From IMG/VR virus record IMGVR_UViG_3300036398_000569, positions 1 to 36,201 of that record: a stretch of 36,201 nt of DNA. One strand, given 5' to 3'. This document shows, one piece after another, positions 10,068 through 29,653 of this stretch; the stretch's first letter is position 1; every line of letters begins with the position of its first letter. The position numbers and the translations under genes were made by a program. The DNA comes from a virus. Below the pieces are notes generated by a model, which saw nothing but the letters and a program-made list of their open reading frames with translations, had not been told where the DNA came from and did not search any database.

Positions 10068-10296
10068 TCCTTGGAATCTTCGGGGTCGTCTTCCCATGAC
10101 TCCTGTCTGGAAGGATTCAAATAAAACTGAGTATCGCCGTATGGCTACTGATGGTTATCCTCTTTACATCAAACCTGAGGATGATCCTTACACTTACTTG
10201 AAAAGTCCAAATCCACCCAAACCTGAAGATGTCGAAAAAGCTCAGTTCATTGACAAAACCTACCGAGGATGGACCGACACTCGTATTCGATCTTGA
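10021..10296 (+). CDS. Small protein between helicase and DNA polymerase genes (91 aa)
   Basis: The ATG at 10021 overlaps the helicase end by 47 nt; ATGs at 9997 and 10096 are alternatives. The product contains KTEYRRMATDGYPLYIKPED and a KSPNPPKPEDVEKAQF segment, proline-rich and hydrophilic. Its end runs 68 nt into the exonuclease domain gene in another phase. No family is recognised. The position between helicase and polymerase suggests a replication accessory role, but nothing in the sequence proves it. Confidence 0.55.
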   Translation: MKLNQNKSSIQPQTFDPWNLRGRLPMTPVWKDSNKTEYRRMATDGYPLYIKPEDDPYTYLKSPNPPKPEDVEKAQFIDKTYRGWTDTRIRS

Positions 10297-10792
10297 AACC
10301 GACGGGTTCCTGAATGATGTTACCCGTATCCACTGTCTGGCTATCTATGATCTCCAGGCGGAGCAAATGCTGGTTTACAACGACGAAGGGACTGAGGAAC
10401 CGATTATTCGCGGCATTGAATACCTTGAAGACGCCGCGTGTATTGTTGGTCACAACATTATTGGTTACGACTGCCCTGTTATTCGTAAACTCTTTCCTTG
10501 GTTTTCTCCTAATGGTTTGGTTGTTGACACTTTGATTCTATCTCGGTTGTATCATACCGATCTTCTCAAGATAGATCAGAAGCGAGCCTGGAAACACATG
10601 CCTGTCCAACTGTATGGACGCCACTCCTTGGAAGCCTATGGTTACCGCCTGGGTGAATACAAAGGGAACTTCTCCAAGACAACTGACTGGAAAGAGTGGT
10701 CACAGGACATGCAAGATTACTGCGTTCAAGACGTTACTGTTACACACAAACTATGCAAACATTTCCACCCATACCTGAGTGGGTTGCGCTAG
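10229..10792 (+). CDS. DNA polymerase, 3'-5' exonuclease domain (first part of a split gene)
   Basis: The three proofreading motifs are present: Exo I VFDLETDG (D21, E23), Exo II VGHNIIGYD, and Exo III YCVQD (Y164, D168). The frame then stops at 10792, 40 nt after the start of the polymerase part, which lies in the -1 phase. In T7 (704 residues) both halves are one protein; here they are 187 and 420. The ATG at 10229 overlaps the preceding gene; TTG 10250 is an alternative. The product could associate with the polymerase subunit, or the reading frames could be joined by frameshifting or be a sequence artefact. No classical slippery heptamer is visible in the overlap. Confidence 0.9.
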   Translation: MSKKLSSLTKPTEDGPTLVFDLETDGFLNDVTRIHCLAIYDLQAEQMLVYNDEGTEEPIIRGIEYLEDAACIVGHNIIGYDCPVIRKLFPWFSPNGLVVDTLILSRLYHTDLLKIDQKRAWKHMPVQLYGRHSLEAYGYRLGEYKGNFSKTTDWKEWSQDMQDYCVQDVTVTHKLCKHFHPYLSGLR

Positions 10793-12015
10793 AACACAGG
10801 GTCGCTCAAATTCTTACTGAACAGGAGATACATGGATGGTACTTTGATGAGTCTGCTGCATGGAAACTTGAATCAACTCTCCGACAAGAGCTTGAAGGGC
10901 TTACTCAAGTACTACGAGACAGGTATCCTCTCATCAAAGGATCGGAGTTTACTCCTAAACGATCTAACAAAACCAGTGGCTACGTCGAAGGAGCTACTTT
11001 CTCTCGACTAAAGGAGTTCAATCCTACATCCAGGGATCACATTGCCTGGGTGATGGAGTGGCACTACAAATGGGAGCCAACTCAATTCACCGATAAAGGT
11101 AAAGCCACTATTGATGAAGTAGTTCTGAAAGACATTGGTACGCCGATTGCTCTTCAGTTCTTCCGTTGTCTTGAACTAACCAAGCAACTTGGCATGTTGT
11201 CGGAAGGCATCAATGCCTGGTTGAAGTTAGTGAGAAACAACCGTATTCATCACCACTGTTCTGTATCAACCAACACTTACAGATGTGCTCACCGCAAGCC
11301 AAACCTTGCTCAAGTACCCAGTGACGCTAATTTTAGAAAGCTATTCTGCGCTACTCCTGGCCTTGTTATGGTTGGTGCTGATCTCGCAGGCATTGAACTC
11401 AGAATGCTTGCCCACTATCTGGCTCGATATGATGGAGGCAGGTATGCAGACGTTCTTCTCAACGGTGACATTCACCAGGAGAACGCTGACAAGATCGGCA
11501 TTAGCCGTAAACAAGTCAAGACAGTAACGTATGCCTTTTTATACGGGGCTGGTGATGCCAAGTTGGGAAGAAGTTATGATCCTCAACTCAATGAAAAAGA
11601 TGCAAAGAAAAAGGGTAAAGAGATACGTCAAGCTTACATGGATGCAGTTCCTGGACTTGAGAAGTTGGTTACTGCGGTTAAGTCCAAGGCAGAATCTGGC
11701 TACATCAACCTGTGTGACGATCGCCGCTGCATTGTTGATGGTAGCCACAAAGCCCTTAACTACCTCTTGCAAGGATCCGCTGGTGTAATTGCCAAGCGGT
11801 GGATGCTTATTAATTACGACAACACACGTGAGCTATGCTGCTCACAACTAGCTTTTGTACATGACGAATTGCAATTTGAATGCGACCCAGGACACGTGGA
11901 TCAACTACGAGCATCCTTGGTACACTCAGCTGAAGAGGCTGGACGCTATTACAACCTACGAATACCTATCGCCGCTGAAGCACAAACAGGTGCTAACTGG
12001 AGTGAAGTCCACTAA
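10753..12015 (+). CDS. DNA polymerase family A, polymerase domain (second part)
   Basis: The conserved part opens with EWVALEHRVAQILTEQEIHG, matching the T7 thumb region. Motif A is GADLAGIELRMLAHYLARYD (D210), motif B (finger helix) is KQVKTVTYAFLYGAGDAKLG and motif C is VHDEL (D371). The end GANWSEVH parallels the T7 terminal histidine. The start is placed at ATG 10753, because upstream codons to 10696 are only an out-of-phase reading of the Exo III segment. It lacks the exonuclease domain, supplied by the gene upstream. In T7 the polymerase uses host thioredoxin as its processivity factor through a thumb insertion; no large insertion is obvious here. Confidence 0.93.
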   Translation: MQTFPPIPEWVALEHRVAQILTEQEIHGWYFDESAAWKLESTLRQELEGLTQVLRDRYPLIKGSEFTPKRSNKTSGYVEGATFSRLKEFNPTSRDHIAWVMEWHYKWEPTQFTDKGKATIDEVVLKDIGTPIALQFFRCLELTKQLGMLSEGINAWLKLVRNNRIHHHCSVSTNTYRCAHRKPNLAQVPSDANFRKLFCATPGLVMVGADLAGIELRMLAHYLARYDGGRYADVLLNGDIHQENADKIGISRKQVKTVTYAFLYGAGDAKLGRSYDPQLNEKDAKKKGKEIRQAYMDAVPGLEKLVTAVKSKAESGYINLCDDRRCIVDGSHKALNYLLQGSAGVIAKRWMLINYDNTRELCCSQLAFVHDELQFECDPGHVDQLRASLVHSAEEAGRYYNLRIPIAAEAQTGANWSEVH

Positions 12016-13600: not shown

Positions 13601-15004
13601 ATGTCCGCTCCACAAAAAGAATTGATCGCCCGCACTGGGCGAGTGCAGTCTTGGATTGACGACCCCACCTCCCGCCTACCTGTCTCCTGCACTGTTTTTG
13701 TGGTGGAGGATGAAATGGAGGGTCCAAATGGAATTGAAGCCAGCTGGCGTTTTGTTAGTCATGCTCTTCGCTATGGCGCTGGTGTTGCAGTGCACTTGTC
13801 CAAACTCCGTCCCAAAGGGGATGAGAATGGCAAGGGACTTGTAGCGTCTGGTCCTGTGTCCTTTGGTAAAATCTACTCGACTCTGAATGAAATCCTTCGT
13901 CGTGGTGGTATTTACAAAAATGGGGCAGTAGTACTGCACCTAGATTTGAACCACCCAGATGTTCTGGAGTTCATCACTGTAAGCCGAGTTGATCTGCCTT
14001 GGGTCAAACGTTGTGTTAACATCAACCCACACTGGTGGAATAAAGCAACACAACAAGTAAAGAGCGCCCTGCTTGAAGGCATTAAGCGTGGTGACATTTG
14101 GCTCAACAAAACTAAAGTTGATCGTAATGGAAATCGAATCCGGGGAAACGTTTGCCTGGAGGTGTACTTGCCCTCACGGGGAACCTGTTTACTGCAACAT
14201 GTCAACCTCGGTCAATGCGAACTCAATGACATTCAAAATGCATTTGTCAACGGAATGTCCGAGTTGTGCGCCCTCCATGCCAAAACAGGCGTTGAATCTA
14301 GCGGAGAGTACCTCCCTTCGGAGACGGATCGCCAGGTCGGTCTGGGAATGCTCGGACTGGCTAACCTGCTCCGTAAATCCGGTGTGACATATGCGGAGTT
14401 TGGTGAAGCCCTTGAGGCAATCAACTCCAAACAGCCCCACCCCCACACTCCTGCATCTATCCTTGCCCACGAACTGCTGGCTGGTATCCAAGCCGCTGCT
14501 CACGTGGCTAAGGTGAACAACATGGAGCGAGCCTTTGCTATTGCTCCTACAGCGTCCTGTAGCTATCGCTATACGGACCTTGATGGGTACACCACCTGCC
14601 CAGAGATTGCTCCTCCTATTGCCCGCCATGTGGACCGTGACAGCGGTACGTTTGGTGTCCAAAGCTTTGACTACGGCCCTGTTGAGATCGCGTCTGAGGT
14701 TGGCTGGGAGGCTTATAAGAAAGTCGCTGATGGCATCATGACGATGCTTAACAGCACGGGACTTCTTCACGGTTACAGCTTCAATAGTTGGTCTGATGTG
14801 ATCACCTATGACGAAGCGTTTATCGAAGAGTGGCTTGCTTCATCGCAAACCTCCCTTTACTATTCGCTTCAGGTTATGGGTGATACACAAGATAAGACCA
14901 GTGCATACGCTGCATTGGAGGAATCAGAGGTTACCGATTACCTGGAGTCGATTCTCTATGATAGAGATGATGATCCTGCTCCTGATTGTAATTGCGGCGA
15001 ATGA
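13601..15004 (+). CDS. nrdA: Ribonucleotide reductase alpha subunit, class I-like (short form)
   Basis: It reduces ribonucleotides to deoxyribonucleotides. Catalytic residues are all visible: C30 in PVSC, N183-x-C185-x-E187 in NVCLE, the partner C196, the tyrosine pair Y420-Y421 and the C-terminal redox cysteines as C463-x-C465. The tyrosine pair is the electron-transfer route of class I enzymes. It has 467 residues; typical alpha subunits are 700-800, so the N-terminal ATP cone and part of the barrel edge are missing. As I recall, the P-SSP7 enzyme of this type was once called class II and later re-annotated as class I with an adjacent beta gene; the same arrangement is here. ATGA joins it to nrdB. 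Confidence 0.92.
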   Translation: MSAPQKELIARTGRVQSWIDDPTSRLPVSCTVFVVEDEMEGPNGIEASWRFVSHALRYGAGVAVHLSKLRPKGDENGKGLVASGPVSFGKIYSTLNEILRRGGIYKNGAVVLHLDLNHPDVLEFITVSRVDLPWVKRCVNINPHWWNKATQQVKSALLEGIKRGDIWLNKTKVDRNGNRIRGNVCLEVYLPSRGTCLLQHVNLGQCELNDIQNAFVNGMSELCALHAKTGVESSGEYLPSETDRQVGLGMLGLANLLRKSGVTYAEFGEALEAINSKQPHPHTPASILAHELLAGIQAAAHVAKVNNMERAFAIAPTASCSYRYTDLDGYTTCPEIAPPIARHVDRDSGTFGVQSFDYGPVEIASEVGWEAYKKVADGIMTMLNSTGLLHGYSFNSWSDVITYDEAFIEEWLASSQTSLYYSLQVMGDTQDKTSAYAALEESEVTDYLESILYDRDDDPAPDCNCGE

Positions 15005-26776: not shown

Positions 26777-29653
26777 ATGGCACTATCTAAAGAACTACAA
26801 CTACAACAGGGTTATCAAAGCCCGATAGAACGCCAAGGTTTCAATCCTCTTCAACTGACTGACCAAACAGATCAGCTTGAGCGCAACAAACAGGTTGAGC
26901 TTTCTAATATCCAAGCAGAAGGAAGTGCAATCAATGAAACCGCAAAACTGCAAGACCTTGCTAATCGTCTTAATCTAGAAGAAAGCGCCCGAATTGTTCA
27001 ATTTTCTGAAACCTTGGGTAAGGTAGTAGGCGAAGGCGTCAAGATGTACGCTGAAGCTGGTATTGAACGTGGCATGAATAAAGCACTAGATGCTGGTGCT
27101 ACCTTTGAAGAATGGCAGGAATATACTGAAAGTCTAAACCGAGCTAAGCTTGGTGATGCCGCTATGCAAGTTGCTGCTAATGATTCACTTGCCAAAGGTG
27201 AACCATTTGAAGTAGCAAACCTGTACAAGAAGCTTGGTCATTATGAGAAGATTGGGTTTACCCGAACAATGGCTAAGCAAGCTGGTGATGCTTACAAGCC
27301 TTGGCTAGAGGAGCAACTTCAAAGTAATAACACCCTTCAAATTCGATTGAAAGATGGCACAGTCTTTACTCCATCTGAATCGAAGGGTGATCCAATTAAA
27401 ACTGCTCAAGCTGTTCGTGCACTCAATTCTGAGTTTTATAAACAGTATGGCCTTGTAGGTGTTAATACCACACTTCTTAATGAGCACGCTTTTCCTTCAA
27501 TGCGGAAAGCCCGTAGTGAAGTTATTGGTGAAGCTCGCTTTCAATTTGCTCAAGAAGAATCGTTTAAAGCACGAGAGCTTGCTGATGCACAGCTGCTGAC
27601 TGATGAAGGCCGTGATCCCTTGGCTTGGATCCGAAGAATGTCTGCCACTGTTGATGCACGTGGTAATCACCTTGGAATGCGTGGTGCTTGGACAGAGTTT
27701 TGGAAACACCTGGGTAACTTAGATAAAGCCGGGCAATTAGACCTTGAAACGTTTAACAACATTAAAGGGTCGGTTGATCCCGAATCAGGTAAAACCGTTG
27801 GTGCTCGTTGGGAAACTCAATTCAGAGCTTTTGAAAAAGAACGAGCAGCTAATGCACGTGCTAATTTTGCTGCAGATGAAGCTGACCGTGAAATGCTTGC
27901 TAAGCAAGGTGAGCAGCAACTAGAGACCTATTTCCGTGATAACCCTGATGAAGCTACTGAAGCTAACATCAAAGGTGCTCAACAGGAATACTTCAATAAA
28001 TACGGTAGAGAGAGTTCTTACCTAAAGAACCTTGAATCTACTTATGGTATGGATGCTCGGGCCAAGGACGAACTAAATGATCGTTTTCAAAAGCTTGCTG
28101 AGCAGAATCTTCTTACCACTGAAATGGTTGCTCGTGCTCCTTGGGATATTCAAACCAAATGGATGTCTTCGGCCAAGCAACAAGAAGCAGGTAGAACAGC
28201 TACTTTTAAAACTCAACTCAAAGCTATTGAGAACCACGTTAAAACTGATCCTCGTGTGAAAGTTTCACCTGATGGTTCTACCAGTGGCATGGCAACACTT
28301 GTGATTGGTGAACTTCAAGCTAAGTTTAACCGCAAGGTGTCTGAGTACGTTGGTGCTGGCATGAGCCAAACTCAAGCCGCTAACCAAGCCGTTGCTGAGG
28401 TAATGTCTGAGTTCAAGACTGATCCTCGTTATGCAATGAATAACATGGGTGAGTTCTCTAACTTCACTCTTGGCACTGCTAAAACCTCTGCTGCTATCAA
28501 TCATAAACTAAACACCATTCGTTCTAGTATTCTTGGTGGTGGTAAATCTTCTCTTAACAAGAAACCTGGCCTTATCTTCAATGCTGCAGAATTAACTGCC
28601 ATGGAGGATGGTTACGGTGAAGCCGGTTGGAAGATGCCTTTGGAGGCTCAATACTGGGGATCTAAACTTGGTATCAGTGGTCTTGAAGTCATTAACCGAC
28701 AACGTGAAGCCGCTGGCATGAGGCCATTGATTACTCCTGCTTCTATGGAAGTAGCAAACAAATCAATGTCCGTTCAGATGCAAGCGTTGCTTAATCGTCT
28801 ACCTACGTATAACCGCTCTGTACGGGCGCTGAGCAGCATGGGAAGCTTCCAGCCTACTATGGTGCCTAAGGGCTTCGGAACGGTTGTACAGAAGGCTGCA
28901 AGGGCCAATGGCATTGATCCTGCAATCCTTACTGGTATTCTTGAAGTAGAATCAAACTGGCGTGATGATGTTATCTACGGTAGAACTCAGTCTAATGCAG
29001 GCGCTAGAGGTATCGCTCAAATTATGCCGGAGTATCATCCTGGTGTAAATTATAACGATCCCATTGCAAGCATTAACTACGCAGCCAAACACCTTAAGGG
29101 TTTGATTGCAGCTACTAATGGAGATGTTAATCGTGCCATTCAAGCTTATAACGCAGGTTTAGGCGGTATTGGAAAGTCTCAAGAGAACAGGGATTATCTT
29201 CCTAAAGTTCTTAAATCAGCTGCTAAGTACGGCTACGGTCAAGCTTGGCGTGATCCTGCAACCATGCGTCCTTCTGTTGTTTATAAGATTGGCAGTCTTG
29301 GATATGGATCTACGGGTCCACATCTTGATGTGAAACGTGTTGCACGAGGTACTACTGCTACTACTGGTTCTGTTCCAATTAAACCCAATGAAGTTGATAA
29401 CTTTGTTGAAGTGAACGTGAATGGTAAGTGGAAGCCTCTTTCTAAAGGTACAACTCTGACTGATACTGAAGCTCGTCATCGTGCACGAGGTTCGTATGGA
29501 GTTGATTATGCAGCCCCCTCTGGTACGCCAGTAAGGCTGAAAAACGGAGCACAAGTCGTTGATACGTTCAAAGGTCATGAAGGTACAGACCATATGATCA
29601 TTGAACTTCCTGACGGCAGACGGTTCCAATTCCTACATGGTACAAAAGTATAA
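26777..29653 (+). CDS. Internal virion protein C-like (T7 gp15 position) with SLT and M23-like segments
   Basis: A 958-residue ejection protein. Residues 1-690 are helical and match the position of T7 gp15 (747 residues). The C-terminal third holds a lytic transglycosylase domain: RANGIDPAILTGILEVESNW with catalytic E725, then NAGARGIAQIMPEY and IQAYNAGLGGIG. After it come GSTGPHLDV (H849, D851) and SYGVDYAAPSGTPVRL (D910) and GRRFQFLHG, M23 peptidase-like pieces in a permuted order and with the first zinc ligand missing. In T7 the transglycosylase is on gp16, so the domain appears to have moved to this gene. It would open the cell wall during DNA ejection. Confidence 0.88.
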   Translation: MALSKELQLQQGYQSPIERQGFNPLQLTDQTDQLERNKQVELSNIQAEGSAINETAKLQDLANRLNLEESARIVQFSETLGKVVGEGVKMYAEAGIERGMNKALDAGATFEEWQEYTESLNRAKLGDAAMQVAANDSLAKGEPFEVANLYKKLGHYEKIGFTRTMAKQAGDAYKPWLEEQLQSNNTLQIRLKDGTVFTPSESKGDPIKTAQAVRALNSEFYKQYGLVGVNTTLLNEHAFPSMRKARSEVIGEARFQFAQEESFKARELADAQLLTDEGRDPLAWIRRMSATVDARGNHLGMRGAWTEFWKHLGNLDKAGQLDLETFNNIKGSVDPESGKTVGARWETQFRAFEKERAANARANFAADEADREMLAKQGEQQLETYFRDNPDEATEANIKGAQQEYFNKYGRESSYLKNLESTYGMDARAKDELNDRFQKLAEQNLLTTEMVARAPWDIQTKWMSSAKQQEAGRTATFKTQLKAIENHVKTDPRVKVSPDGSTSGMATLVIGELQAKFNRKVSEYVGAGMSQTQAANQAVAEVMSEFKTDPRYAMNNMGEFSNFTLGTAKTSAAINHKLNTIRSSILGGGKSSLNKKPGLIFNAAELTAMEDGYGEAGWKMPLEAQYWGSKLGISGLEVINRQREAAGMRPLITPASMEVANKSMSVQMQALLNRLPTYNRSVRALSSMGSFQPTMVPKGFGTVVQKAARANGIDPAILTGILEVESNWRDDVIYGRTQSNAGARGIAQIMPEYHPGVNYNDPIASINYAAKHLKGLIAATNGDVNRAIQAYNAGLGGIGKSQENRDYLPKVLKSAAKYGYGQAWRDPATMRPSVVYKIGSLGYGSTGPHLDVKRVARGTTATTGSVPIKPNEVDNFVEVNVNGKWKPLSKGTTLTDTEARHRARGSYGVDYAAPSGTPVRLKNGAQVVDTFKGHEGTDHMIIELPDGRRFQFLHGTKV

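Follow-up and report, generated by a model that had tools for sequence, protein, structure and literature searches.

A predicted circularly permuted M23/LytM-like domain behind changing glycosidases on the gp15-type ejection protein of cyanopodoviruses

Introduction

After ejection, gp15 of T7 forms a periplasmic tunnel (PMC8954989). The SLT transglycosylase of this phage is carried at the N-terminus of gp16. Lysozyme activity has been assigned to the gp15-type proteins of SP6 (gp36), K1E (gp35) and K1-5, and gp36 of phiKMV bears a C-terminal lysozyme (PMC8954989, PMC5380687); neither source mentions an M23-like domain in connection with the proteins of SP6, K1E or phiKMV. According to a 2017 review, every virion lysin known by then to combine two lytic domains belonged to a phage of a Gram-positive host (PMC5380687).

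The M23 peptidases are major wall enzymes of phages and bacteria and follow a strict order of motifs. In LytM the zinc is bound by H210, D214 and H293, and catalysis involves Tyr204 together with H260 and H291, two water-activating histidines that are both required for it (PMC4594094). No description of a permuted M23/LytM domain was found in open-access text, where the only wall peptidases mentioned as circularly permuted are of the NlpC/P60 types. The text of the P-SCSP1u cryo-EM paper does not discuss wall domains in the core proteins.

Here we analyse the viral record IMGVR_UViG_3300036398_000569, a linear fragment of 36,201 bases, referred to below as the window. Its gp15-position protein carries an SLT domain followed by a C-terminal domain that appears to be an M23/LytM homologue with its two halves in reversed order.

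Results

The major capsid protein encoded in the window is 84.5% identical to that of Synechococcus phage S-TIP37 and 82% identical to that of P-SSP7, and the virus is accordingly a T7-like cyanopodovirus. The order of nozzle, small internal, gp14-position, 26777-29653 and gp16-position genes (Table 1) matches the order 12, small protein, 14, 15 and 16 of P-SSP7, and places the reading frame of interest between gp14- and gp16-type genes, where gp15 lies in T7. A full-length profile of its family matches the gp15-position proteins of S-TIP37 (gp38, 1e-74) and S-B28 (4e-42), as well as those of S-RIP2, S-SBP1 and P-SSP7 at 1e-19 to 1e-22 (1e-19 for P-SSP7 gp15, a name itself based on synteny and size). 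Synteny and homology thus firmly identify the protein as gp15-type among cyanopodoviruses. A PDB profile search gave no direct match to T7 gp15 itself, and the relation to that protein is one we infer. The full-length AlphaFold2 model has a pLDDT of 76 and a pTM of 0.34, and residues from about 30 to 690 are predicted to be mainly helical.

Elsewhere in the window, the DNA polymerase (10229-12015) appears as two overlapping ORFs that do not share a frame: one is exonuclease-like (RNase_H_2), and the other, which matches DNA_pol_A, begins with the GTG at 10696. Genes of nucleotide metabolism lie at 390-1055 and 13601-15004, with a ThyX-type thymidylate synthase and a match to the ribonucleotide reductase barrel domain.

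Table 1. Predicted features of the ejection-protein region and of the gp15-position protein, in window coordinates
Feature	Position	Strand	Basis
Tail nozzle (gp12-type), 975 aa	22705..25632	+	PF25675, 5e-174
Small internal virion protein, 151 aa	25641..26096	+	phrog_308, 4e-22
gp14-position protein, 229 aa	26083..26772	+	P-SSP7 synteny; phrog_29086, E=6e-4
gp15-position ejection (internal virion) protein, 958 aa	26777..29653	+	ORF; full-length profile of the family; P-SSP7 gene order
SLT lytic transglycosylase domain, residues 695-825	28859..29251	+	PF01464, 5e-16; model superposition on Slt/MltC (Z 15-16.5) and T7 gp16
Predicted catalytic Glu of SLT, E725	28949..28951	+	ES motif aligned with T7 gp16; kept in SLT-bearing homologues
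Permuted M23-like domain, first block (residues 835-857, GSLGYGSTGPHLDVKRV)	29279..29347	+	Corresponds to the canonical M23 C-terminal hairpin; profile alignments
H849-L-D851	29321..29329	+	H849 = LytM H291; D851 replaces zinc ligand H293; 67-domain alignment
Linker between the two blocks, residues 858-892	29348..29452	+	High rotation score wherever the linker is cut
Second block, residues 893-958	29453..29650	+	Corresponds to the canonical M23 N-terminal half; Pfam M23 profile positions 3-51; hhalign
H901, nine positions ahead of D910; may be a replacement ligand or take part in catalysis	29477..29479	+	Invariant in 67 sequences; F..H..[RK]GSxGxD motif shared with a canonical-order M23 in Microbacterium tectiviruses
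S906, in place of LytM zinc ligand H210	29492..29494	+	Invariant in 67 sequences
D910, equivalent of LytM zinc ligand D214	29504..29506	+	67-domain alignment
H954, equivalent of LytM H260 (water activation), FLHG motif at the C-terminus	29636..29638	+	67-domain alignment
gp16-position ejection protein, 1293 aa	29656..33537	+	phrog_6651 internal virion protein, 1105 bits

A preliminary description, made from the sequence, had placed a transglycosylase with E725 as its catalytic residue in the C-terminal third of the gp15-position protein, and the SLT domain proves genuine. PF01464 matches residues 704-805 with 58.7 bits against a curated cut-off of 21.3, and E725 is the first residue of an ES motif that aligns with the TES motif of T7 gp16. 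In the full-length model, the segment 678-825 resembles the structures of Slt, MltC and MltF (Z 14-16.5); the best superposition (Z 16.5, 2.1 A over 126 residues) is with a Slt-type enzyme of lysozyme-like fold, and the N-terminal domain of T7 gp16 follows with Z 12.5 and 33% identity. Pfam and phrog profile searches found no SLT domain in the gp16-position protein. The wall enzyme therefore resides, as had been proposed, on the gp15-type rather than the gp16 protein, unlike in T7. This is an ordinary and already known part of the finding, as the same location has been published for SP6, K1E/K1-5 and phiKMV, C-terminally in the last of these.

The M23/LytM-like domain occupies residues 835-955, at the C-terminus of the protein. 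Within the last 130 residues GSTGPHLDV comes first and is followed by SYGVDYAAPSGTPV...FLHG, so that HLD (849-851) lies ahead of GVDYAAP (908-914), exactly as the preliminary description had read it. A profile built from 11 relatives aligns with the solved M23 peptidase 5kqb in two blocks of opposite order (overall 5.5e-6). The order was tested by comparing a profile of 67 permuted domains with one of 58 canonical phage M23 domains: the profile-profile score rises from 46.8 in native order to 63.4 after rotation (E 9.7e-11, 92 columns), a value reached by none of 100 shuffles of the moved N-block (47.2 +/- 1.4, maximum 53.8). The score remains high for any cut within the linker and drops for cuts elsewhere. 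We rely on this test with random shuffles because the gains seen in doubled domains and single sequences are weak or inflated. PF01551 gives 12.1-18.2 bits in native order, below its curated cut-off of 28.7; on the doubled domain the Pfam M23 profile reaches 34.2 bits, partly by counting one half twice; a single sequence with the first block appended once scores 22.1 bits, compared with 18.4-19.2 when any of four hand-scrambled blocks is used instead; and the rotated order exceeds all 20 shuffles in only 15 of the 67 single sequences.

The weakness of the single-sequence signals is what could be said for the permuted order being an artefact, arising from chance likeness of short motifs or from a misassembled contig. 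Against this stand the shuffles and the recurrence of this arrangement in about 98 different domains spread over many contigs. Misassembly is excluded by the isolates P60, S-CBP1 and DSL-LC07, which have the same order, and an artefact of either kind is extremely improbable. At the profile level the evidence for permutation is strong, and the comparison supports reading the C-terminal domain as an M23/LytM homologue in circularly permuted order. The predicted fold, which the preliminary description had regarded as decisive for the M23 assignment, gives a divided answer. The domain model is confident (pLDDT 94.8, pTM 0.88) and the sequence profiles favour M23, but Foldseek found no M23 match for it in the PDB. 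Order-dependent aligners are expected to struggle with a circular permutation, and we take this as a missing match that does not speak against such a fold. Its best VIA match is a lectin (Z 4.1), with M23 chains absent among the matches listed, and in the viral library Foldseek matches it to P60, to the tape measure of an uncultured phage and to S-TIM5.

Compared with M23 peptidases of the LytM/lysostaphin type (PF01551), the permuted domain retains both blocks, the equivalents of D214, H260 and H291, and the GxDYAAPxGTPV motif, whereas the blocks are reversed, the canonical linker between the middle His and HxH is absent, and two of the three zinc ligands are replaced. In the usual HxH zinc motif, here HLD, the first His is kept and the second has become D851; the motif HxGxD reads SYGVD, with S906 at the position four residues before D910. 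The replacement of the first zinc ligand by serine, noticed at the outset in this one sequence, extends to all 67 aligned sequences. H901 perhaps corresponds to LytM Tyr204 by alignment, and H954 lies four residues before the C-terminal residue 958. Sixteen positions, mostly polar or glycine, are invariant across these 67 diverse domains, among them H849, D851, K853, D874, H901, R904, S906, G908, D910, H954 and G955. No other part of the gp15-position protein is as well conserved as the permuted domain: identity is 67% in the HLD block and 57% in the second block, against 25% in the SLT domain and 18-20% elsewhere, across 22 distant homologues that were found by searching with the permuted domain, which favours that domain, and that do not all carry SLT. 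The highest conservation in the protein and the invariant site residues are at odds with decay of the domain.

Beyond ejection proteins, the permuted order with HLD occurs in tail proteins from Moraxella Mcat phages, in Acinetobacter siphophage tape measures such as that of R3177, and in the 'peptidase M23' of S-EIV1. These domains lie on a tail tape measure or on a separate gene and keep the first zinc His (HRGID, HKGID and HEGID), in contrast to Ser906 on the ejection protein. The alignment of the ejection-protein profile with the tape-measure profile runs from end to end (E 1.1e-8, 109 columns), and the tape-measure-type group likewise gains from rotation against canonical M23, from 74.1 to 102.2, with none of 100 shuffles reaching that score. 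The change from HLH to HLD thus belongs to the whole permuted family. As the HLD-bearing relatives retain the first zinc His, Ser906, accompanied by His901, is a fixed change specific to the ejection-protein clade.

The enzyme ahead of the permuted domain varies among SLT, glucosaminidase (PF01832), a Phage_lysozyme2-like domain, an endolysin-type domain (phrog_90) and no recognised enzyme. The Synechococcus phages P60 (gp33), S-CBP1 and DSL-LC07 have the same gp15-position protein with the permuted domain, and S906, D851 and H954 are conserved in them; in place of the SLT domain seen here, the partner is Phage_lysozyme2-like in P60, just under its cut-off, or a glucosaminidase. A tree of 98 permuted domains, built on few columns and with many forks unresolved, shows at least 12 changes of partner class. 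Thirteen members (L094, L099, L104, L166, L169, L172, L173, L176-L179, L184 and L186) keep the domain with no recognised glycosidase ahead of it, the full-length ones measuring about 845-890 aa; in the two whose adjacent ejection genes were checked, L094 and L104, those genes showed no glycosidase either. Judged by these profile matches, the glycosidase has been exchanged repeatedly ahead of a constant permuted domain.

Other phages of the group carry different enzymes at the gp15 C-terminus: a SleB-type Hydrolase_2 in S-RIP2 and S-SBP1, seen below cut-off in S-B28, and a canonical M23 domain with an intact site in S-SRP01 and without HLH in S-CBP4. By domain content, the C-terminus of cyanopodovirus gp15 is an exchange site that may carry SLT, glucosaminidase, other lysozymes, SleB-type hydrolase or canonical M23, or no enzyme at all.

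Discussion

The combination of a gp15-type protein, an SLT domain and a permuted M23-like domain with a role directed at the cell wall is, catalysis by the latter domain set aside, a probable reading of this locus. The helical region of residues about 30-690 would provide the periplasmic tunnel, and the C-terminal third would act as a wall-opening head composed of an exchangeable glycan-cutting domain, here SLT, and the permuted domain behind it. On leaving the capsid gp15 would assemble across the periplasm, the SLT domain would cleave the glycan strands, and the permuted domain would engage, and probably cleave, the stem-peptide cross-links, through H849, H954 and a reorganised site made up of D851, D910 and possibly H901 or S906. 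The tunnel role, the contact with peptidoglycan and its timing are what we infer, with T7 gp15 as the model.

On whether the permuted domain cuts or only binds, its site residues point both ways: the retained water-activating histidines argue for catalysis, the two replaced zinc ligands for binding only. The preliminary description had suggested a possibly inactive peptidase serving to bind peptidoglycan. Of its two parts, inactivity finds support in the replaced ligands but is somewhat disfavoured by the position of the domain as the best-conserved region, with both LytM water-activating histidines and the zinc Asp invariant. The binding role stays a live alternative, in which a pseudo-peptidase serves for binding or targeting, keeps the neighbouring glycosidase, or the tip of the tunnel, attached to the wall, and performs no hydrolysis. 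It accounts for the serine found throughout the clade at the position of the first zinc His, as well as for the Asp in HxH, and the retention of the domain behind several different glycosidases is expected of a general wall-binding module. Degenerate LytM domains that are not enzymes have precedents in EnvC and NlpD. On the other side, the invariant histidine pair and zinc Asp are not obviously needed for binding alone, and the tape-measure relatives, permuted in the same way, still have the first zinc His. We consider such a binding module quite possible, though short of an even chance. As both LytM water-activating histidines are retained, we lean narrowly towards a functional domain whose metal site has been reorganised, hydrolysis standing slightly ahead of binding alone. 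That this rebuilt site would make the permuted branch an active cross-link-cutting enzyme, forming with the interchangeable glycosidase a two-enzyme wall-opening head on the cyanophage ejection tunnel, is offered tentatively.

Hydrolysis might also be explained by another form of the site, in which H901 compensates for the loss at Ser906 as a first metal ligand displaced five residues upstream, leaving an active H/D/D metallopeptidase. H901 is invariant, and the permuted relatives with His at the position four residues before the Asp have no His at the 901 position. A further hint that His901 could take over as metal ligand comes from a single case, the peptidase of a Microbacterium tectivirus (L189, 2794-3426), a canonical-order M23 domain with the same F..H..KGSxGID motif, in which Ser replaces the first zinc His, a His is present five residues farther upstream, and YAHL and HLH are intact. 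This canonical-order family is the only one with the motif: the IMG/VR motif search returned 73 matches, all of them permuted members, with no further canonical-order M23, and genome contigs gave nothing useful. H901 may match Tyr204 of LytM instead, and we regard the compensation as rather unlikely. A purely structural use of the domain, in core packing or portal docking, with M23 ancestry and no wall function, is less probable still: it would fit an internal core protein and the 13 members that keep the domain with no recognised glycosidase, but the sister phages place other wall enzymes, Hydrolase_2 or canonical M23, at the same site.

Standard annotation would miss a conserved permuted branch whose ligands are altered, as it falls below the Pfam cut-off, and such a branch would probe which M23 residues are truly required. 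If active, the SLT domain with the permuted module here, and the glucosaminidase with intact M23 in S-SRP01, would be exceptions to the statement on virion lysins with two lytic domains (PMC5380687). The gp15 C-terminus of cyanopodoviruses, as a hot spot of wall-enzyme swapping, offers a handle on phage adaptation to different cyanobacterial walls.

Two further proteins of this position deserve mention. That of S-SRP01 (L026, 1244-4399) combines the glucosaminidase with a canonical-order M23 domain having all motif residues (HEGND, AHLS and HVH). The C-terminus of P-SSP7 gp15 (L349, 2059-4572) has no recognised wall enzyme and contains two repeats of the form W-K-I-P-N-x-I-G-Y-[YF]-V-[YW]...SGQ[KR]GK.
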